DNA of 64,000 nucleotides from Lachnospiraceae bacterium (GTDB taxonomy: Bacteria; Bacillota; Clostridia; Lachnospirales; Lachnospiraceae). The notes beneath the pieces are model-generated. The model did not search any database. It was not told the origin of the DNA and saw only the letters and a list, made by a program, of their open reading frames with translations. Made by a program: the position numbers and the translations under genes. Positions within the stretch are counted from its first letter, which is position 1; every line of letters begins with the position of its first letter. The stretch lies in assembly GCA_017387565.1 (NCBI GenBank), contig JAFOEY010000019.1, forward strand, positions 1-64,000, read 5' to 3'. Shown piece after piece: positions 27,021 through 56,153 of this stretch.

Positions 27021-27120
27021 TATGATACCGGGGGCAAAGAAAGTAGCCCGATTAGGGCGGATTTCGAATGTTTTAGGATTGTGAGAGTACAAAGTGCGTA
27101 GCAATCCTTGGTATCATGGA
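27021..27120. repeat. Family A repeat, copy 3
   Basis: TATGATACCGGGGGCAAAG, then GTAGCCCGATTAGGGCGG, then the GGATTGTGAGAGTAC/AAAGTGCGTAGCAATCC hairpin, ending GGTATCATGG. Same orientation as copy 1 at the left edge, and shares its GCCC gatta GGGC hairpin. It fills the spacer between the zinc-ribbon gene and yqeY. Confidence 0.85.
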
Positions 27121-32978: not shown

Positions 32979-33206
32979 TTTGTAAGAAAATGATATCTTC
33001 CCTGCCTATACGTCCGTTGTCCGTTTTATCTAAATAATCCGAGAAAAGTTTAGGTGAACTGACGCACACGGTGCAAAATCGGCATCCTGCCTCGATGCAC
33101 CTTTCGCGACATCCATGTCGCGAGGCGCTGATAGCTGAATTGGATTATTAAGATAAACCGGACAACTACCATTAAATAGGCAGGGAAGATACCATTTTCT
33201 CACAAA
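32979..33206. repeat. Giant hairpin element, family B, copy 1
   Basis: A 228-bp inverted element. Arms at 32979-33040 and 33142-33206 match closely over about 62 bp (for example TCTTCCCTGCCTAT on the left and ATAGGCAGGGAAGA on the right; GTTGTCCG and CGGACAAC). The head 33041-33141 has GGTGCA...TGCACC enclosing GGCA TCC TGCC, then CGCGACATCCATGTCGCG, then GCTGATAGC. No ORF. It lies between two minus-strand genes. Copies are at 35708, 55480 and 55833. Confidence 0.92.
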
Positions 33207-33278: not shown

Positions 33279-34679
33279 TCAAACTATGTTTTTGATTACT
33301 TCTGAAAGTTTTTCCATTGCTTTTGGAAGTTGTGTTTGAGATATTGAGCTAAATCCGAGCAAAAGCTGATTCTGAGGACAGAGGGTTTTATCGGCCCAAA
33401 ATAACTCTGTAGGATATATTCGTATTTTATTTTGCGCAAAACGCTCTATCAGTTCTGCCTGAGTCAGCTTTGTTTGTATAGAAATGACAAAGTGCAATCC
33501 GGCATCTTCTCCAATCAAAATCGCATTTCCCTTCAAAGTGTTATTGACATAGTTTCTGATGTAATCATGTTTCTTTCGATAGTGTGTCCTCATGATATTG
33601 ATATGGCGCTGATATTCGCCGATTTCAATATATTCAGCAAGTGTAAACTGAAGAAGTGCGGGGACAGTACAGTTTGCATACAGATATTTCTCCTTGTAAG
33701 CAAGTAAAAGGTGTTCCGGAAGTACAATATAGGCAATCCGCAGATCGGGGGAAAGCGACTTTGAAAATGTTCCGAGGTATATGGTGCGATTATCGGAATC
33801 GATGGATTGCAGGGATGGAATGGGACGATTATGGTAACGTAGTTCGCTGTCATAGTCATCTTCTATAATGTATCCGTCATTTTTCCTTGCCCATTCTAAA
33901 AGCTGTAATCGTTTAGATATGGAAAGCACACTTCCCAATGGAAACTGATGGGAGGGTGTAATGCACAGCAAGGTATGAAAAAGACTTTGAACTACACGAA
34001 CAGAAATCCCGTCTGCCTCTACGGGTATTGGTGTTATTTGAAAATGCTTCTGTTCCATTACTTGTCGGGTACCGCTATAACCGGGCTCTTCCATGGCGAA
34101 TTTCCAATTTGCATCGGAAAACAGACTTGCTATGATGTGCATGGACTGTTGATGACCGCTTGTAAATATAATCTGCTCAGCGGAACATTTTACACCTCGT
34201 GACTGATATAGATATTTAGAAAGGATTTGGCGCAGATTGAAAAAGCCCTGTGGATCTTCGTAAACCACATTTTTTTGGCACACAAGTTTTTCATAAGCGT
34301 TCAGCAGACATTTTCTCCACGCTTTGGAATTGTAACAGTTATAATCCAAATCGCCGTAGGTAAACATGTAATCATAGGATGACTTTGATTGTTCCATTAC
34401 AGGCAGGGTGATATCGGCTTTCGGAGAAACAGGTTTAAAGGTAGAAAGATTTTCAACATAATATCCTGAGCCGGCAATGGATTTGATATAACCTTCGACC
34501 TCTAACTGTTGATATGCTTCTATCACCGTATTCCTGCCTAATTTATATTCAAAAGACAGTTCACGTGTAGAGGGCAGGCGCAATCCGGCAGAAATTTTTC
34601 CTGAAAGAATCTGCTGCTTAAGCTGTTCGTATAATTGCTTGTACAAAGGGATATTGCTACTTTTGTCTAAGATAAACAT
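33279..34679 (-). CDS. MocR/PdxR-type GntR regulator with aminotransferase domain
   Basis: A 466-residue fusion of a GntR winged-helix domain (residues about 5-70: IPLYKQLYEQLKQQILSG, LPSTRELSFEYKLGRNTV) and a class I aminotransferase-like PLP domain (about 110-460: FTSGHQQSMHI, EDDYDSELRY, PLP lysine in GTFSKSLSPDLR). MocR proteins sense PLP or amino compounds and often control a divergent gene. Start: AAAGGA upstream favours Met at 34679 over 34703. The divergently read arylamine N-acetyltransferase gene is the obvious candidate target. Confidence 0.9.
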   Translation of the reverse strand: MFILDKSSNIPLYKQLYEQLKQQILSGKISAGLRLPSTRELSFEYKLGRNTVIEAYQQLEVEGYIKSIAGSGYYVENLSTFKPVSPKADITLPVMEQSKSSYDYMFTYGDLDYNCYNSKAWRKCLLNAYEKLVCQKNVVYEDPQGFFNLRQILSKYLYQSRGVKCSAEQIIFTSGHQQSMHIIASLFSDANWKFAMEEPGYSGTRQVMEQKHFQITPIPVEADGISVRVVQSLFHTLLCITPSHQFPLGSVLSISKRLQLLEWARKNDGYIIEDDYDSELRYHNRPIPSLQSIDSDNRTIYLGTFSKSLSPDLRIAYIVLPEHLLLAYKEKYLYANCTVPALLQFTLAEYIEIGEYQRHINIMRTHYRKKHDYIRNYVNNTLKGNAILIGEDAGLHFVISIQTKLTQAELIERFAQNKIRIYPTELFWADKTLCPQNQLLLGFSSISQTQLPKAMEKLSEVIKNIV

Positions 34680-34708
34680 ACAATCTGTCCTTTCCTGCTT
34701 CATAAATA

Positions 34709-34765
34709 AATTGGTTCCATGAAATTTGGCAAAATTGGAGCTTATTTACAAACCAATCTGATGAT
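34709..34765. promoter_or_regulatory. Divergent control region, likely MocR operator
   Basis: Between the MocR-type gene and nat, ATTGGTTCC and AATTGGAGC form a direct repeat, and ATTGGTT also pairs with AACCAAT further on. Such spaced repeats are typical of MocR operators. Assignment is inferred from position and pattern. Confidence 0.55.
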
Positions 34766-34825
34766 ATTATAAAAAAGAATTTGAATCCAATGCAAGAAAA
34801 AACGAAAATGTAGGAGACTGGTAAG

Positions 34826-35668
34826 ATGTTGAACGAGATACAGGTAAAACAATATTTACAGCGTATTGAATATAATAACGAGCTTTTTGCAGATTTAGCT
34901 ACTCTAATTGGATTACAATGGGCGCATATGACACATATTCCCTATGAAAATCTTGATATACTGTCAGGTATTCCGTTGTCCTTGAAGACAGAAGATTTAT
35001 TCCGTAAAATTGTGACAGAAAAACGAGGGGGATATTGTTTTGAATTGCAGGGATTGTATGGAGAACTTTTAAAAAGCTGTGGGTTTGATGTTGTGCAATA
35101 TGCTGCAAGATTCATGGATGAAGAAGGAATTGTACAAATGAGACGACATCGGATTTTGGTTGTCCGGATTGGCGATGAACGTTATCTTACTGATGTAGGC
35201 GTAAGGAGTGAATCACCAAGAATACCACTTAAGCTGGTATGCGATGAGCTCCAGACAGATAATATATGTGAGTACAAGTTTCAAAGAGATCCTTTTTATG
35301 GATGGGTGCTTTATCAGAAGGAACGGGGAAAGCAGTGGAAAACGATATACGGGTTTACAGAGGAGCCGCAGATAGATGATGATTTTGTTATGCCATCTTT
35401 TTACTGCGAGAAACACCCGGACTCTACATTTAATAAATTTATGAAAATATCCATTTTTAGAGGGGAAAGCAATTTTACACTGGTAAACGGTATATTTCGG
35501 GAATACCGAAATGCAAAAGTGCATATAAAGAAAGAACTTACAAACAATGCAGAAACAAGTGAAATTTTAAAAAAATATTTTGGCTTAAATCTATATTCCC
35601 ATAACACAACAAATAGCGAAAGTGATTTCGAAAGTGCAGTAAAGAATGAAAGCGTAGCAAATAACTGA
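34826..35668 (+). CDS. nat: Arylamine N-acetyltransferase
   Basis: A 280-residue cytoplasmic enzyme that transfers acetyl from acetyl-CoA to arylamines or hydrazines. The Cys-His-Asp triad is visible: Cys71 in RGGYCFELQG, His108 in MRRHRIL and Asp123 in YLTDVG. The N-terminal helical part has IPYENLDIL. The C-terminal residues are a Ser/Asn-rich tail. The ribosome binding site is TAGGAGAC. In gut anaerobes such enzymes can modify drugs such as 5-aminosalicylate; the natural substrate is unknown. The divergent MocR-type gene probably regulates it. Confidence 0.93.
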   Translation: MLNEIQVKQYLQRIEYNNELFADLATLIGLQWAHMTHIPYENLDILSGIPLSLKTEDLFRKIVTEKRGGYCFELQGLYGELLKSCGFDVVQYAARFMDEEGIVQMRRHRILVVRIGDERYLTDVGVRSESPRIPLKLVCDELQTDNICEYKFQRDPFYGWVLYQKERGKQWKTIYGFTEEPQIDDDFVMPSFYCEKHPDSTFNKFMKISIFRGESNFTLVNGIFREYRNAKVHIKKELTNNAETSEILKKYFGLNLYSHNTTNSESDFESAVKNESVANN

Positions 35669-35707
35669 TACACTTGTCTTGTACCTCACTATTTCTTTCA
35701 ATACCCA

Positions 35708-35934
35708 GTTGAATGTAAATCGTATTCTTGAATGTTTATTGTGAAGATGTATTAGCTCATCTTAATATTTTGTTCAGTTTCAGCAATGAGCAGCAAGGAT
35801 GCTGCGAAAGGTGCACGTTGGACATGGATGTCCGGGTGCACCGGTGCGTCCGGTTATAATAATTATATTACAAAATATTTAGATGAACTTATACATCGCA
35901 ACCTAAACATGAAAGAATACGATTTACATCCAAC
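35708..35934. repeat. Giant hairpin element, family B, copy 2
   Basis: A 227-bp inverted element, head in opposite orientation to copy 1. Arms 35708-35773 and 35870-35934 are about 85 percent complementary (GTAAATCGTATTCTT on the left, AAGAATACGATTTAC on the right). The head has GCAGCAAGGATGCTGC, then GGTGCAC...GTGCACC enclosing GGACATGGATGTCC, then GGTGCGTCCGG. It ends 27 bp before the -35 box of the aspS T-box. Confidence 0.92.
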
Positions 35935-35960
35935 GTCCGTAACAAGCAGATAATCGGTCG

Positions 35961-35994: not shown

Positions 35995-36200
35995 CAAATG
36001 GCAATGACGAAGACGAGTAACATAGTTTATCGTTCCCAGCGAGTGAGGGATGGTGAGAGCCTCGCAAAGTGAATCTGTGTGAATAACAACTTCAACAGCC
36101 AGGACAATTGGATTTGAGTGACTGTTTTCAGTAATTCAGGTGGCACCGCGGACTGTATGTTCGTCCTGAGACAAGCAATGTTTCAGAACGGACTTTTTTT
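35995..36200 (+). ncRNA. T-box riboswitch upstream of aspS
   Basis: The T-box sequence AGGTGGCACCGCGG at 36138-36151 is the diagnostic element. It is followed by a terminator (GTTCGTCCTGAGAC paired with GTTTCAGAACGGAC, then TTTTTTT) at 36159-36198. Upstream is a stem I-like region with GACGAGTAAC and GGTGAGAGCC. The RNA would read uncharged tRNA and switch on aspS. The specifier codon is not resolved; AAC near 36092 and GAC near 36105 are candidates. Confidence 0.92.
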
Positions 36201-36248
36201 ATGCGCTCCGTTCAAAACAGAATTCGTTTTTATAAGGAGGAGACAAAA

Positions 36249-37994
36249 ATGTCAAACATTTATCGTGACCGTACGATGAATCAAATCACAGAAGCTGATG
36301 TGAACAGCACATTAAAAATCGCCGGATGGGTAGAAAATATCCGTGACCATGGCGGTGTGTCATTTATTGATTTAAGAGATATGTACGGTGTTATGCAGGT
36401 AGTCATGAGAGATACCTCTTTGCTTGATGGAATCAACAAAGAAGATTGTATCAGTGTAGAGGGTCTGGTTGAACATCGTGATGAAGAAACCTACAATCCC
36501 AAAATCCCGACAGGAACCATTGAATTAGAGGCTCATAAGGTTGAGATTTTAGGAAAGGTATATAAACAGCTTCCGTTTGAAGTGCAGACTTCAAAAGAAA
36601 TTCGCGAAGATCTCAGATTGAAATATCGTTATCTGGATTTGAGAAATAAGAAAGTAAAAGATAATATCATTTTCCGTTCTGAGGTTATCAGCTTTTTACG
36701 TCAGAAGATGACAGAGATGGGATTTATGGAAATTCAGACCCCCATTCTTTGTGCATCATCACCGGAAGGCGCGCGTGACTATATTGTTCCTTCCCGTAAA
36801 TACAAAGGAAAATTTTATGCATTGCCGCAGGCACCGCAGCAGTACAAACAGCTTTTAATGGTATCCGGCTTTGATAAATATTTCCAGATTGCTCCCTGTT
36901 TCAGAGATGAGGATGCGAGAGCCGACCGTTCACCCGGCGAGTTCTATCAGTTGGATTTTGAAATGAGCTTTGCAACACAGGAAGATGTATTCCGCGCAGG
37001 AGAAGAAATTCTTACAGCAACCTTTGAAAAATTTGCTCCCGAAGGTGCAGCAGTAACTGCAGCTCCTTATCCGGTTATCAGCTACAAAGAGGCAATGCTA
37101 AAATACGGAACCGACAAACCGGATCTTAGAAATCCGCTTGAAATCGTGGATGTAACAGATTTCTTCCAGAGATGTACATTTAAGCCGTTCCATAAAAAAA
37201 CAGTACGTGCCATCAATGTTCATGCAAAGCTTTCCAAAGGTCAGCATGAGAAATTATTAAAGTATGCACAGTCCATCGGAATGGGCGGACTTGGTTATCT
37301 GGAAGTGTTAGATGATATGTCCTATAAGGGACCGATTGATAAATTTATTCCGGATGATATGAAAACAGAAATTGCAGAGCTTGCAGGTCTTGCAGCAGGA
37401 GATACCATTTTCTTTATTGCAGATAAAGAAGCAAAAGCTGCCAACTATGCAGGCCAGCTTCGTACGGAAATTGCAAACAGACTGGATTTACTTGAGAAGA
37501 ATGCATTCCGTTTCTGCTTTATCAATGACTTCCCTATGTATGAATACGATGAAGAAGAAAAGAAGATTATCTTTACCCATAATCCATTCTCTATGCCGCA
37601 GGGCGGTCTGGATGCATTAAACAATATGGATCCTTTGGAGATTTTGGCTTACCAGTACGATATTGTATGTAACGGTGTGGAACTTTCTTCCGGTGCGGTT
37701 CGTAACCACAATCTGGACATTATGGTGAAGGCATTTGAAATCGCCGGATATACCGAAGATGATTTGAAACAGAAATTCGGTGCATTATACAATGCATTCC
37801 AGTTTGGTGCTCCTCCGCATGCCGGAATGGCACCCGGTGTTGACCGTATGATTATGCTTCTTAAAAATGAAGAGAACATCCGTGAGGTTATTGCTTTCCC
37901 GATGAACGGCAATGCGCAGGATCTGATGTGCGGTGCTCCCGGTGAGGTCACTGAGCAGCAGCTTAGAGAGGTTCATATTAAGGTCAGAGATTAG
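36249..37994 (+). CDS. aspS: Aspartyl-tRNA synthetase
   Basis: Class II synthetase (581 residues) that charges tRNA-Asp, and tRNA-Asn if non-discriminating. It has an N-terminal OB anticodon-binding domain (LKIAGWVENIRDHGGVSFIDLRD shortened; RDMYGVMQVV), motif 2 FRDEDARADRSPGEF, a bacterial insertion domain of about 280-420, and motif 3 GMAPGVDRMIML. AAGGAGG precedes the ATG at 36249; the frame opens at 36201 in the T-box terminator and is not used. Controlled by the T-box upstream. Confidence 0.97.
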   Translation: MSNIYRDRTMNQITEADVNSTLKIAGWVENIRDHGGVSFIDLRDMYGVMQVVMRDTSLLDGINKEDCISVEGLVEHRDEETYNPKIPTGTIELEAHKVEILGKVYKQLPFEVQTSKEIREDLRLKYRYLDLRNKKVKDNIIFRSEVISFLRQKMTEMGFMEIQTPILCASSPEGARDYIVPSRKYKGKFYALPQAPQQYKQLLMVSGFDKYFQIAPCFRDEDARADRSPGEFYQLDFEMSFATQEDVFRAGEEILTATFEKFAPEGAAVTAAPYPVISYKEAMLKYGTDKPDLRNPLEIVDVTDFFQRCTFKPFHKKTVRAINVHAKLSKGQHEKLLKYAQSIGMGGLGYLEVLDDMSYKGPIDKFIPDDMKTEIAELAGLAAGDTIFFIADKEAKAANYAGQLRTEIANRLDLLEKNAFRFCFINDFPMYEYDEEEKKIIFTHNPFSMPQGGLDALNNMDPLEILAYQYDIVCNGVELSSGAVRNHNLDIMVKAFEIAGYTEDDLKQKFGALYNAFQFGAPPHAGMAPGVDRMIMLLKNEENIREVIAFPMNGNAQDLMCGAPGEVTEQQLREVHIKVRD

Positions 37995-55472: not shown

Positions 55473-55479
55473 GCTGGAC

Positions 55480-55706
55480 GTTGGTCGTGTATATATTTTG
55501 TGAGAGTTAAAGTTACGATGCTTATATTTGACTAAGTATTTTTATATTAGGTATTGATTACGGACGCATTGGTGCACCCGGACATCCATGTCCGACGTGC
55601 ACCTTTCGCAGCATCCATGCTGCGAATTGCTGAAATAGAATAAAAATACTAAGTCAAATAAAAGCATCTTCACAATAAACTCTCACAAAATATATACACA
55701 ACCAAC
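55480..55706. repeat. Giant hairpin element, family B, copy 3
   Basis: A 227-bp inverted element. Arms 55480-55545 and 55640-55706 are about 90 percent complementary (GTATATATTTTGTGAGAGTT on the left; AACTCTCACAAAATATATAC on the right). The head has GGACGCA, GGTGCAC...GTGCACC enclosing GGACATCCATGTCC, then GCAGCATCCATGCTGC, then GCTGAAA. Same orientation as copy 1. Confidence 0.93.
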
Positions 55707-55832
55707 TGTTCCTAATCGATCTATATTCTTATGTTTTGAGGATATCAAAAACATACTTTTGCTCAGGGTATCTTTAAATAATTCCATTTACTTTTCTCAA
55801 AGTTTAATATCTTGATTAAGACCTCTTCCACA

Positions 55833-56153
55833 GTATTTTCGTGGAATATGGCATGTTGTTTTAATTGCCGTTTCAATAAGCAGGAGAAATATTGTTTGTT
55901 TCTCGTGCAATTTGACGTTGTTGATTAGTTTATCTTAGTATTCCGAAAAGCAATCAGCACTTCGCGACATGGATGTCGCGAACGGTGCATTCGGACAGGA
56001 TGTCCGTTATGCACCATGTGCGTCCGTGTATAAAAATATATCCTCGGAATACTTAGATAAACTTATCAACGTTAGTCCTGCACGAAAACAAACGATATTT
56101 CTCCTGCATCTCACGGCAAAGAAACAGCAAATGCCATATCTAAAGAAAATTCC
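55833..56153. repeat. Giant hairpin element, family B, copy 4 (extended arms)
   Basis: The longest copy: arms of about 110 bp (55833-55945 and 56044-56153), with inner matches TTATCTTAGTATTCCGA/TCGGAATACTTAGATAA and GCAGGAGAAATATTGTTTGT/ACAAACGATATTTCTCCTGC. The head has CGCGACATGGATGTCGCG, then GGTGCAT...ATGCACC enclosing CGGACAGGATGTCCG, in opposite orientation to the neighbouring copy 3. A 66-codon ORF across it is an artefact. Together copies 3 and 4 fill the gap between the amidase and ACT genes. Confidence 0.92.

Follow-up and report, generated by a model that had tools for sequence, protein, structure and literature searches.

The four long hairpin elements of the 64,000-nucleotide window (the whole stretch of Lachnospiraceae DNA that was analysed) almost certainly belonged to the TwoAYGGAY RNA family (RF01731). 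In an Rfam 15 scan, all four matched the full 168-position model with 84.6 to 108.3 bits, well over the gathering score of 43; the preliminary description of this DNA had known of no described family with such a form, a claim that the scan overturned. We read the elements, with a probability of about 0.55, as copies of a dispersed putative CsrA-docking RNA element whose stems would be renewed by template switching. The strongest result was a stem covariation nearly without wobble, the most useful one the link with CsrA together with a carrier genome lacking csrA, and the oddest one the divergent pairing of the copies.

The window elements and their anatomy

All four hairpins were present where the preliminary description had placed them (Table 1), with the two-hairpin head that it had reported. 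The TCC loops of one strand read GGA on the other (in element 3, plus-strand TCC at 55585-55587 and 55614-55616), and two AYGGAY-type loops were read in each of the four copies. The swapped second stem was also recovered, with GCAGCA in elements 2 and 3 (type A) and CGCGACA in elements 1 and 4 (type B). The extents of elements 2 and 3 had been drawn too short and were widened because both end in a foot, CA-G...C-GTCC. Folding was strong, with z values of -9.6 to -16.1 for RNA folds relative to dinucleotide shuffles, none of which (0 of 100 to 200) folded as well, and the arms were 80 to 97% self-complementary by segment. The elements formed two divergent (minus, plus) pairs, each made of one type A and one type B copy, namely pair A (elements 1 and 2) and pair B (elements 3 and 4). 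The genes lying within pair A encoded, according to Pfam, a GntR plus aminotransferase regulator (minus strand), which we take to be MocR-like, and an Acetyltransf_2 N-acetyltransferase (plus strand).

Table 1. Positions of the TwoAYGGAY elements and related features in the window (G004 and G008, related genomes)
Feature	Positions	Strand	Rfam core or remark	Arm complementarity	Fold z
Element 1, type B TwoAYGGAY with outer arms	32979-33206	-	core 33009-33173, 84.6 bits	94% (outer arms)	-15.0
Two genes separating elements 1 and 2	33279-35668		Pfam and G004/G008 alignment
Element 2, type A, from 5' foot CAG to 3' foot CGTCC	35706-35938	+	core 35739-35904, 97.7 bits	89-90%	-9.6
Element 3, type A, foot to foot (element of the original finding)	55476-55708	-	core 55510-55675, 108.3 bits	85-97%	-16.1
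Conserved head of element 3	55562-55632	-	two GGA-loop hairpins between inner CAG and CGTCC
Spacer of divergent elements 3 and 4	55709-55832		no match to spacers of non-orthologous pairs
Element 4, type B, long outer arms	55833-56153	+	core 55913-56077, 99.4 bits	80-95% (segments)	-15.3

Clostridiales-1 RNAs (RF01699) were also found in the window, at 1-108 (cut by the window start) and 27023-27116. A T-box leader at 35995-36171 (74.3 bits, under the 93-bit gathering score; E 1.9e-16) started 57 bases past element 2 and preceded a class II (D/K/N) tRNA synthetase gene (36201-37994); a related genome, G001, carried a type-B-like element at this spot.

The window elements ran about 30 to 80 bases past the RF01731 model on each side, as copy-specific arms. 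When 25 copies from genome G008 and 23 from genome G006 were aligned, the constant parts were a 5' CTTA opposite a 3' TTAG with one U.U mismatch in the arms, and CAG and CG at the base with the two GGA loops in the heads. Tandem G.A mismatches were widespread in the stems. Under one search rule, the foot at the base of the hairpin (C, bulged A, G-arm ... arm-C, GTCC) was found in 7 of 24 copies of the window's own genome (G000), 9 of 23 in G006, 4 of 6 in G016 and 1 of 14 in G002. Eleven 5' arms from the 23 G006 copies, picked by eye for clear arms, were used as queries: at E <= 0.001 they matched neither one another nor a third genomic place, and nine matched their own opposite arm. Capture of arms from elsewhere in the genome was rejected on this basis, the 11 arms matching their own loci only. 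In four of five genome groups, the strand immediately past the 3' end was poor in G and rich in C, which would agree with an unpaired tail there. Consensus scans displayed no enrichment of promoter-like sites (sigma-70, SigD) upstream of the elements or of T-runs, a T-run following the hairpin in 8.5% of 94 copies, and neither an own promoter nor a terminator could be made out.

In the table of a 2010 comparative-genomics study, the motif was entered as a probable RNA that is not cis-regulatory (PMC2864571), while Rfam now tags RF01731 as cis-reg. In the RMfam report, the loops of TwoAYGGAY matched CsrA sites, and the family was proposed to be an sRNA of Clostridia that binds CsrA (PMC4333381); two extra covarying pairs were given for the family with Rfam 15 (PMC11701678). 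The available parts of the publications found to name the family made no mention of divergent A/B pairing or of template switching.

Copy numbers, pairing and genomic places

The window's genome contained 24 RF01731 copies. Ten of 41 related genomes were carriers, with a range of 0 to 31 copies inside one genus, and the analyses of copies used 150 listed of the 163 matches from these 10 genomes. Among these 150, neighbours within 1 kb were divergent in 30 of 31 pairs (one tandem, none convergent), the pairs not being independent because sister genomes share loci. Within 3 kb, 32 pairs were divergent, one was tandem each way and one convergent; within 8 kb, there were 33 divergent, two and one tandem, and five convergent pairs, the pairing rule being weaker past 1 kb. 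In three sister genomes, the 21 A/B pairs within 3 kb represented 11 loci. Spacers of non-orthologous pairs had nothing in common, and the divergence of type A and that of type B were uncorrelated between pairs (Mantel r 0.08, p 0.31, 11 loci), for which reasons the pairs were rejected as mobile units.

Gene contexts were taken from plain ORFs, and 27 of 119 groups overlapped an ORF. The genes flanking 29 pairs were arranged >> (14), << (10) or >< (5) and never <> (0), so that no pair stood between divergent genes; around single copies, the same arrangements numbered 28, 24, 18 and 11 (<>). Orientation of the elements relative to adjoining genes varied. By alignment, the pair B site (55476-56153) was empty in G001 and G003; in G008, what looks like a deletion had removed element 3 together with part of element 4. 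In the sister genome G004, 228 bases separated the cores of pair A, and the two genes of G000 were not between the elements.

Several copies displayed particular arrangements. Another copy of the sister trio was halved, apparently by deletion. One G004 locus (L057, C14:18362-19127) contained three consecutive copies, two of which formed a tandem repeat; at that site, the sister genomes had either half a copy or the repeat in collapsed form. A third distinct element type was found in the window's genome (C44:48498-50145, L023 and L024) as a divergent pair 1.3 kb apart with cores 93% identical; in the stretch compared, synteny with G008 broke at the second copy. In two G016 pairs (C47:139778-140356 and C33:53805-54433), the heads of the pair members were 96% alike, as if homogenised within the pair, and the arms looked different.

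Evolution of stems and heads

The preliminary description had held that the complementarity within a copy needs structural selection or arm-to-arm conversion, and the data favored conversion in the stems together with selection in the heads. On RNAalifold consensus structures, the ratio of one-sided to two-sided pair-preserving changes was 2:103 in the G008 copies (25 of 29 listed) and 1:183 in the G006 copies (23 of 24), that is 3 one-sided against 286 two-sided changes summed, and two-sided changes occurred at 22 of 32 and 29 of 35 predicted pairs, respectively. The same procedure applied to controls from related genomes gave 95:115 for 6S RNA (26 of 30 loci) and 32:122 for T-box leaders (22 of 30 loci), all these counts treating sequences as independent although they are not. 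Taken alone, the many two-sided stem changes are here no proof of RNA selection.

Arm alignments of the 150 listed of 163 copies contained 10590 Watson-Crick, 207 G.U and 270 A.C cells, with arms from G000 and G004 leaning to G.U over A.C and those from the other eight genomes leaning the opposite way. The heads contained 12 G.U and 12 A.C. Under a shared hairpin rule, heads displayed three of each (69 hairpins) and terminator-like hairpins of the same DNA 22 G.U against 8 A.C (76 hairpins). In 6S arms the G.U/A.C ratio was 1.6 to 2.1 fold, compared with 0.7 to 1.0 in TwoAYGGAY. A cruder finder restricted to Watson-Crick hairpins had obtained 15 G.U and 16 A.C in 25 T-box leaders, and 53 and 66 in the elements; it was replaced by the consensus-structure comparison because its T-box control showed no discrimination, and the lack of a G.U excess in that early control counts against the conversion argument.

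Orthologue comparisons (50 of 56 kept, six being below 0.83 identity) are not independent because three sister genomes share events. They contained 29 double changes preserving Watson-Crick pairing, 22 of which were transversion-type and several adjacent, while single changes in the sister trio yielded 58 G.U and 28 A.C, a pattern expected of RNA selection. The stem of element 3 read GTGAGAG/CTCTCAC in G000 and GTTCGAG/CTCGAAC in G004, and a paralogue (C37:191380) had a mixed, mismatched GTGAGAG/CTCGAAC; the simplest history would be that the ancestral stem was mismatched and that each sister then corrected it after a different arm. Judged from such sequences, DNA-level arm-to-arm conversion in the stems is likely, and one arm could be rewritten from the other by template switching during replication (quasipalindrome correction). 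Monttinen and Loytynoja argued that template switching can both create RNA hairpins and contribute to their upkeep (PMC8794818). We consider that the arms probably stay complementary mainly through this process, with selection keeping the loops, the feet and the fixed U.U mismatch. The persistence of U.U and tandem G.A mismatches counts against the conversion view, as pure conversion would erase them; because the fixed U.U and the widespread tandem G.A mismatches survive conversion, some structural selection acts as well.

Heads changed slowly. In three-way orthologue sets (7 of 12 trios kept, five being below 0.8), changes affected 10 of 414 head sites (18 of 517 including loop-labelled sites), 100 of 1188 arm sites and 632 of 4583 flank sites, the head being 4 to 6 times slower than the flanks. 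Among loop-labelled sites, 8 of 103 changed, a single one of them in a true-loop GGA (in G008); the other changes affected the free N positions, GGA lying outside loops or, in one case, the C of CA. Head against flank changes numbered 4 vs 130 in the csrA-less window genome and 3 vs 221 and 3 vs 281 in its sisters (small numbers). Both GGA hairpins were found in 101 of the 150 listed copies, one in 42 and none in 7. The 244 GGA hairpins, found by requiring GGA, mostly read CA(T/C/A)GGA (187), with 38 CAGGA without the N and 16 CCCGGA, and GGA was followed by TG, CG or AG in 240. As sequences, these loops fit the CsrA consensus (SELEX RUACARGGAUGU, ANGGA rule; PMC7652899, PMC3791407).

An ordinary structured RNA, shaped by RNA-level selection alone and with the paired changes as classical compensatory mutations, seems unlikely. 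It would account for the wide spread of two-sided changes over the predicted pairs (22 of 32 and 29 of 35), for the slow heads, for the retained tandem G.A and U.U motifs and for the G.U-rich single changes of the trio (58:28), but it fits poorly with a one-sided to two-sided ratio so unlike that of 6S RNA and T-box leaders, with double changes that are mainly transversions, and with heads balanced between G.U and A.C (12:12 and 3:3) where terminator-like hairpins are not (22:8).

That the elements are non-autonomous mobile DNA, i.e., MITE- or REPIN-like inverted pairs served by a hairpin-reading transposase and devoid of cellular role, is quite improbable: copy numbers of 0 to 31 in one genus, the empty pair B site in G001 and G003, the fixed REPIN-like inverted arrangement and the position of some copies less than 40 bases from a contig end would agree with it, whereas the unlike spacers, the uncorrelated A/B divergence, the slow heads, a median paralogue identity of 0.66 to 0.69 in five of seven genomes and the absence of target duplication at the sites inspected would not. 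Element 3 was without match in phage and plasmid records, and its carriage by either was rejected. By the preliminary description, identity with an already known MITE/REP family whose transposon partner is autonomous would speak against its view; the Y1 transposase (PF01797), the sole transposase searched, was absent from three of three carriers (G003, G004 and G008), which eliminated a RAYT partner there. An attC-like integron site was considered on box order and tentatively set aside. Bidirectional transcription terminators or 3'-end stabilisers are very doubtful, since a T-run follows only 8.5% of 94 copies and terminators need neither GGA loops nor a fixed mismatch, even if the lack of pairs between divergent genes (0 of 29, with 11 <> among singles counted as 28, 24, 18 and 11) and the G-poor strand past the 3' end in four of five genome groups would speak for such a role.

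CsrA, proposed role and known systems

Across 391 genomes of the class, CsrA was present in 30 of 36 RF01731-positive and 94 of 355 negative genomes (Fisher p 2.5e-11), the negatives including misses because no more than seven candidates per genome were scored, and 9 of the 36 positives being under the gathering score. With gathering-score matches only, the counts were 22 of 27 and 102 of 364 (p 4.6e-8). Three of the six carriers without CsrA were less than 90% complete. At the family level, by a hand count and with an estimated family number, CsrA occurred in 12 of 12 carrier families and in 25 of 74 others (p 1.2e-5). Within the window's family, the class sample displayed no association (CsrA in 5 of 6 carriers and 8 of 10 others), and the 41 relatives a weak trend (9 of 10 carriers and 19 of 31 others, p 0.13); the association lies between families. 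CsrA travels with motility, so lifestyle may explain the link. Both csrA and fliW were absent from the window's genome although it has 24 copies, and G007 lacked csrA, fliW and RF01731 elements altogether, so that, of nine genomes in the genus, two are without both genes. The 3.3-kb fliW-csrA stretch of G008 gave two weak 145-base matches only in G000.

CsrA binding of TwoAYGGAY is a hypothesis already in print and not new here. It is slightly better than an even bet that the heads are two adjacent putative CsrA-docking hairpins and that the copies together act as a sponge for CsrA or control the transcripts that contain them. On the RF01731 strand, the head would become exposed when transcription reads through from adjoining genes; because it comprises two adjacent predicted docking hairpins, each transcribed copy could bind a single CsrA dimer, and many copies could jointly buffer CsrA or each act on its own transcript. 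Several points count against this role: the window's genome has neither csrA nor fliW and keeps its copies, no promoter or T-run appears to belong to the element, orientation relative to adjoining genes is not fixed, and any one transcript presents GGA loops from just one of two divergent partners. More tentatively, CsrA in FliW-CsrA Clostridia may be buffered by a genome-wide hairpin array, with many divergent A/B pairs and stems renewed by template switching, and the array of a lineage without csrA and fliW might be a relic or belong to another partner. If stems are indeed renewed by template switching, the covariation of RF01731 here would reflect how the stems mutate more than selection on the RNA.

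TwoAYGGAY has been in print since 2010 with no known function, and it gains testable facts here: co-occurrence with CsrA that extends across families in the class, a carrier that naturally lacks csrA, and near-strict divergent pairing. A 2020 review described the joint action of FliW and sRNAs on CsrA as still to be determined in any species (PMC7652899), and genomes with TwoAYGGAY are candidates for it. The 3:286 ratio is also a warning: template switching can give rise to two-sided covariation, which is usually read as a mark of RNA structure. The ratio further suggests that the one-sided/two-sided ratio can separate template switching from RNA selection.

The window elements share the two AYGGAY-type loops of TwoAYGGAY RNA (RF01731, clan CL00106) and add copy-specific arms to its model, some copies ending in a CA-G/C-GTCC foot. 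They resemble the CsrA-sequestering sRNAs of CsrB/RsmZ type in having GGA in hairpin loops and more than one site per RNA. Those sRNAs come from few dedicated genes, whereas here many two-site copies are dispersed without recognisable promoter, in carriers that mostly bear CsrA and, in the window's genus, FliW too. REPIN/BIME elements, too, are scattered hairpins whose inverted arrangement is fixed, associated in the REPIN case with RAYT; the present elements differ in having no Y1 transposase in three carriers and in pairs that neither share spacers nor diverge together. In mode of change, there is a likeness with the RNA hairpins maintained by template switching, where multi-base compensatory changes were attributed to copying between the stem sides; the cases described there concern rRNA and microRNA (PMC8794818), and the present one a dispersed, multi-copy bacterial element.
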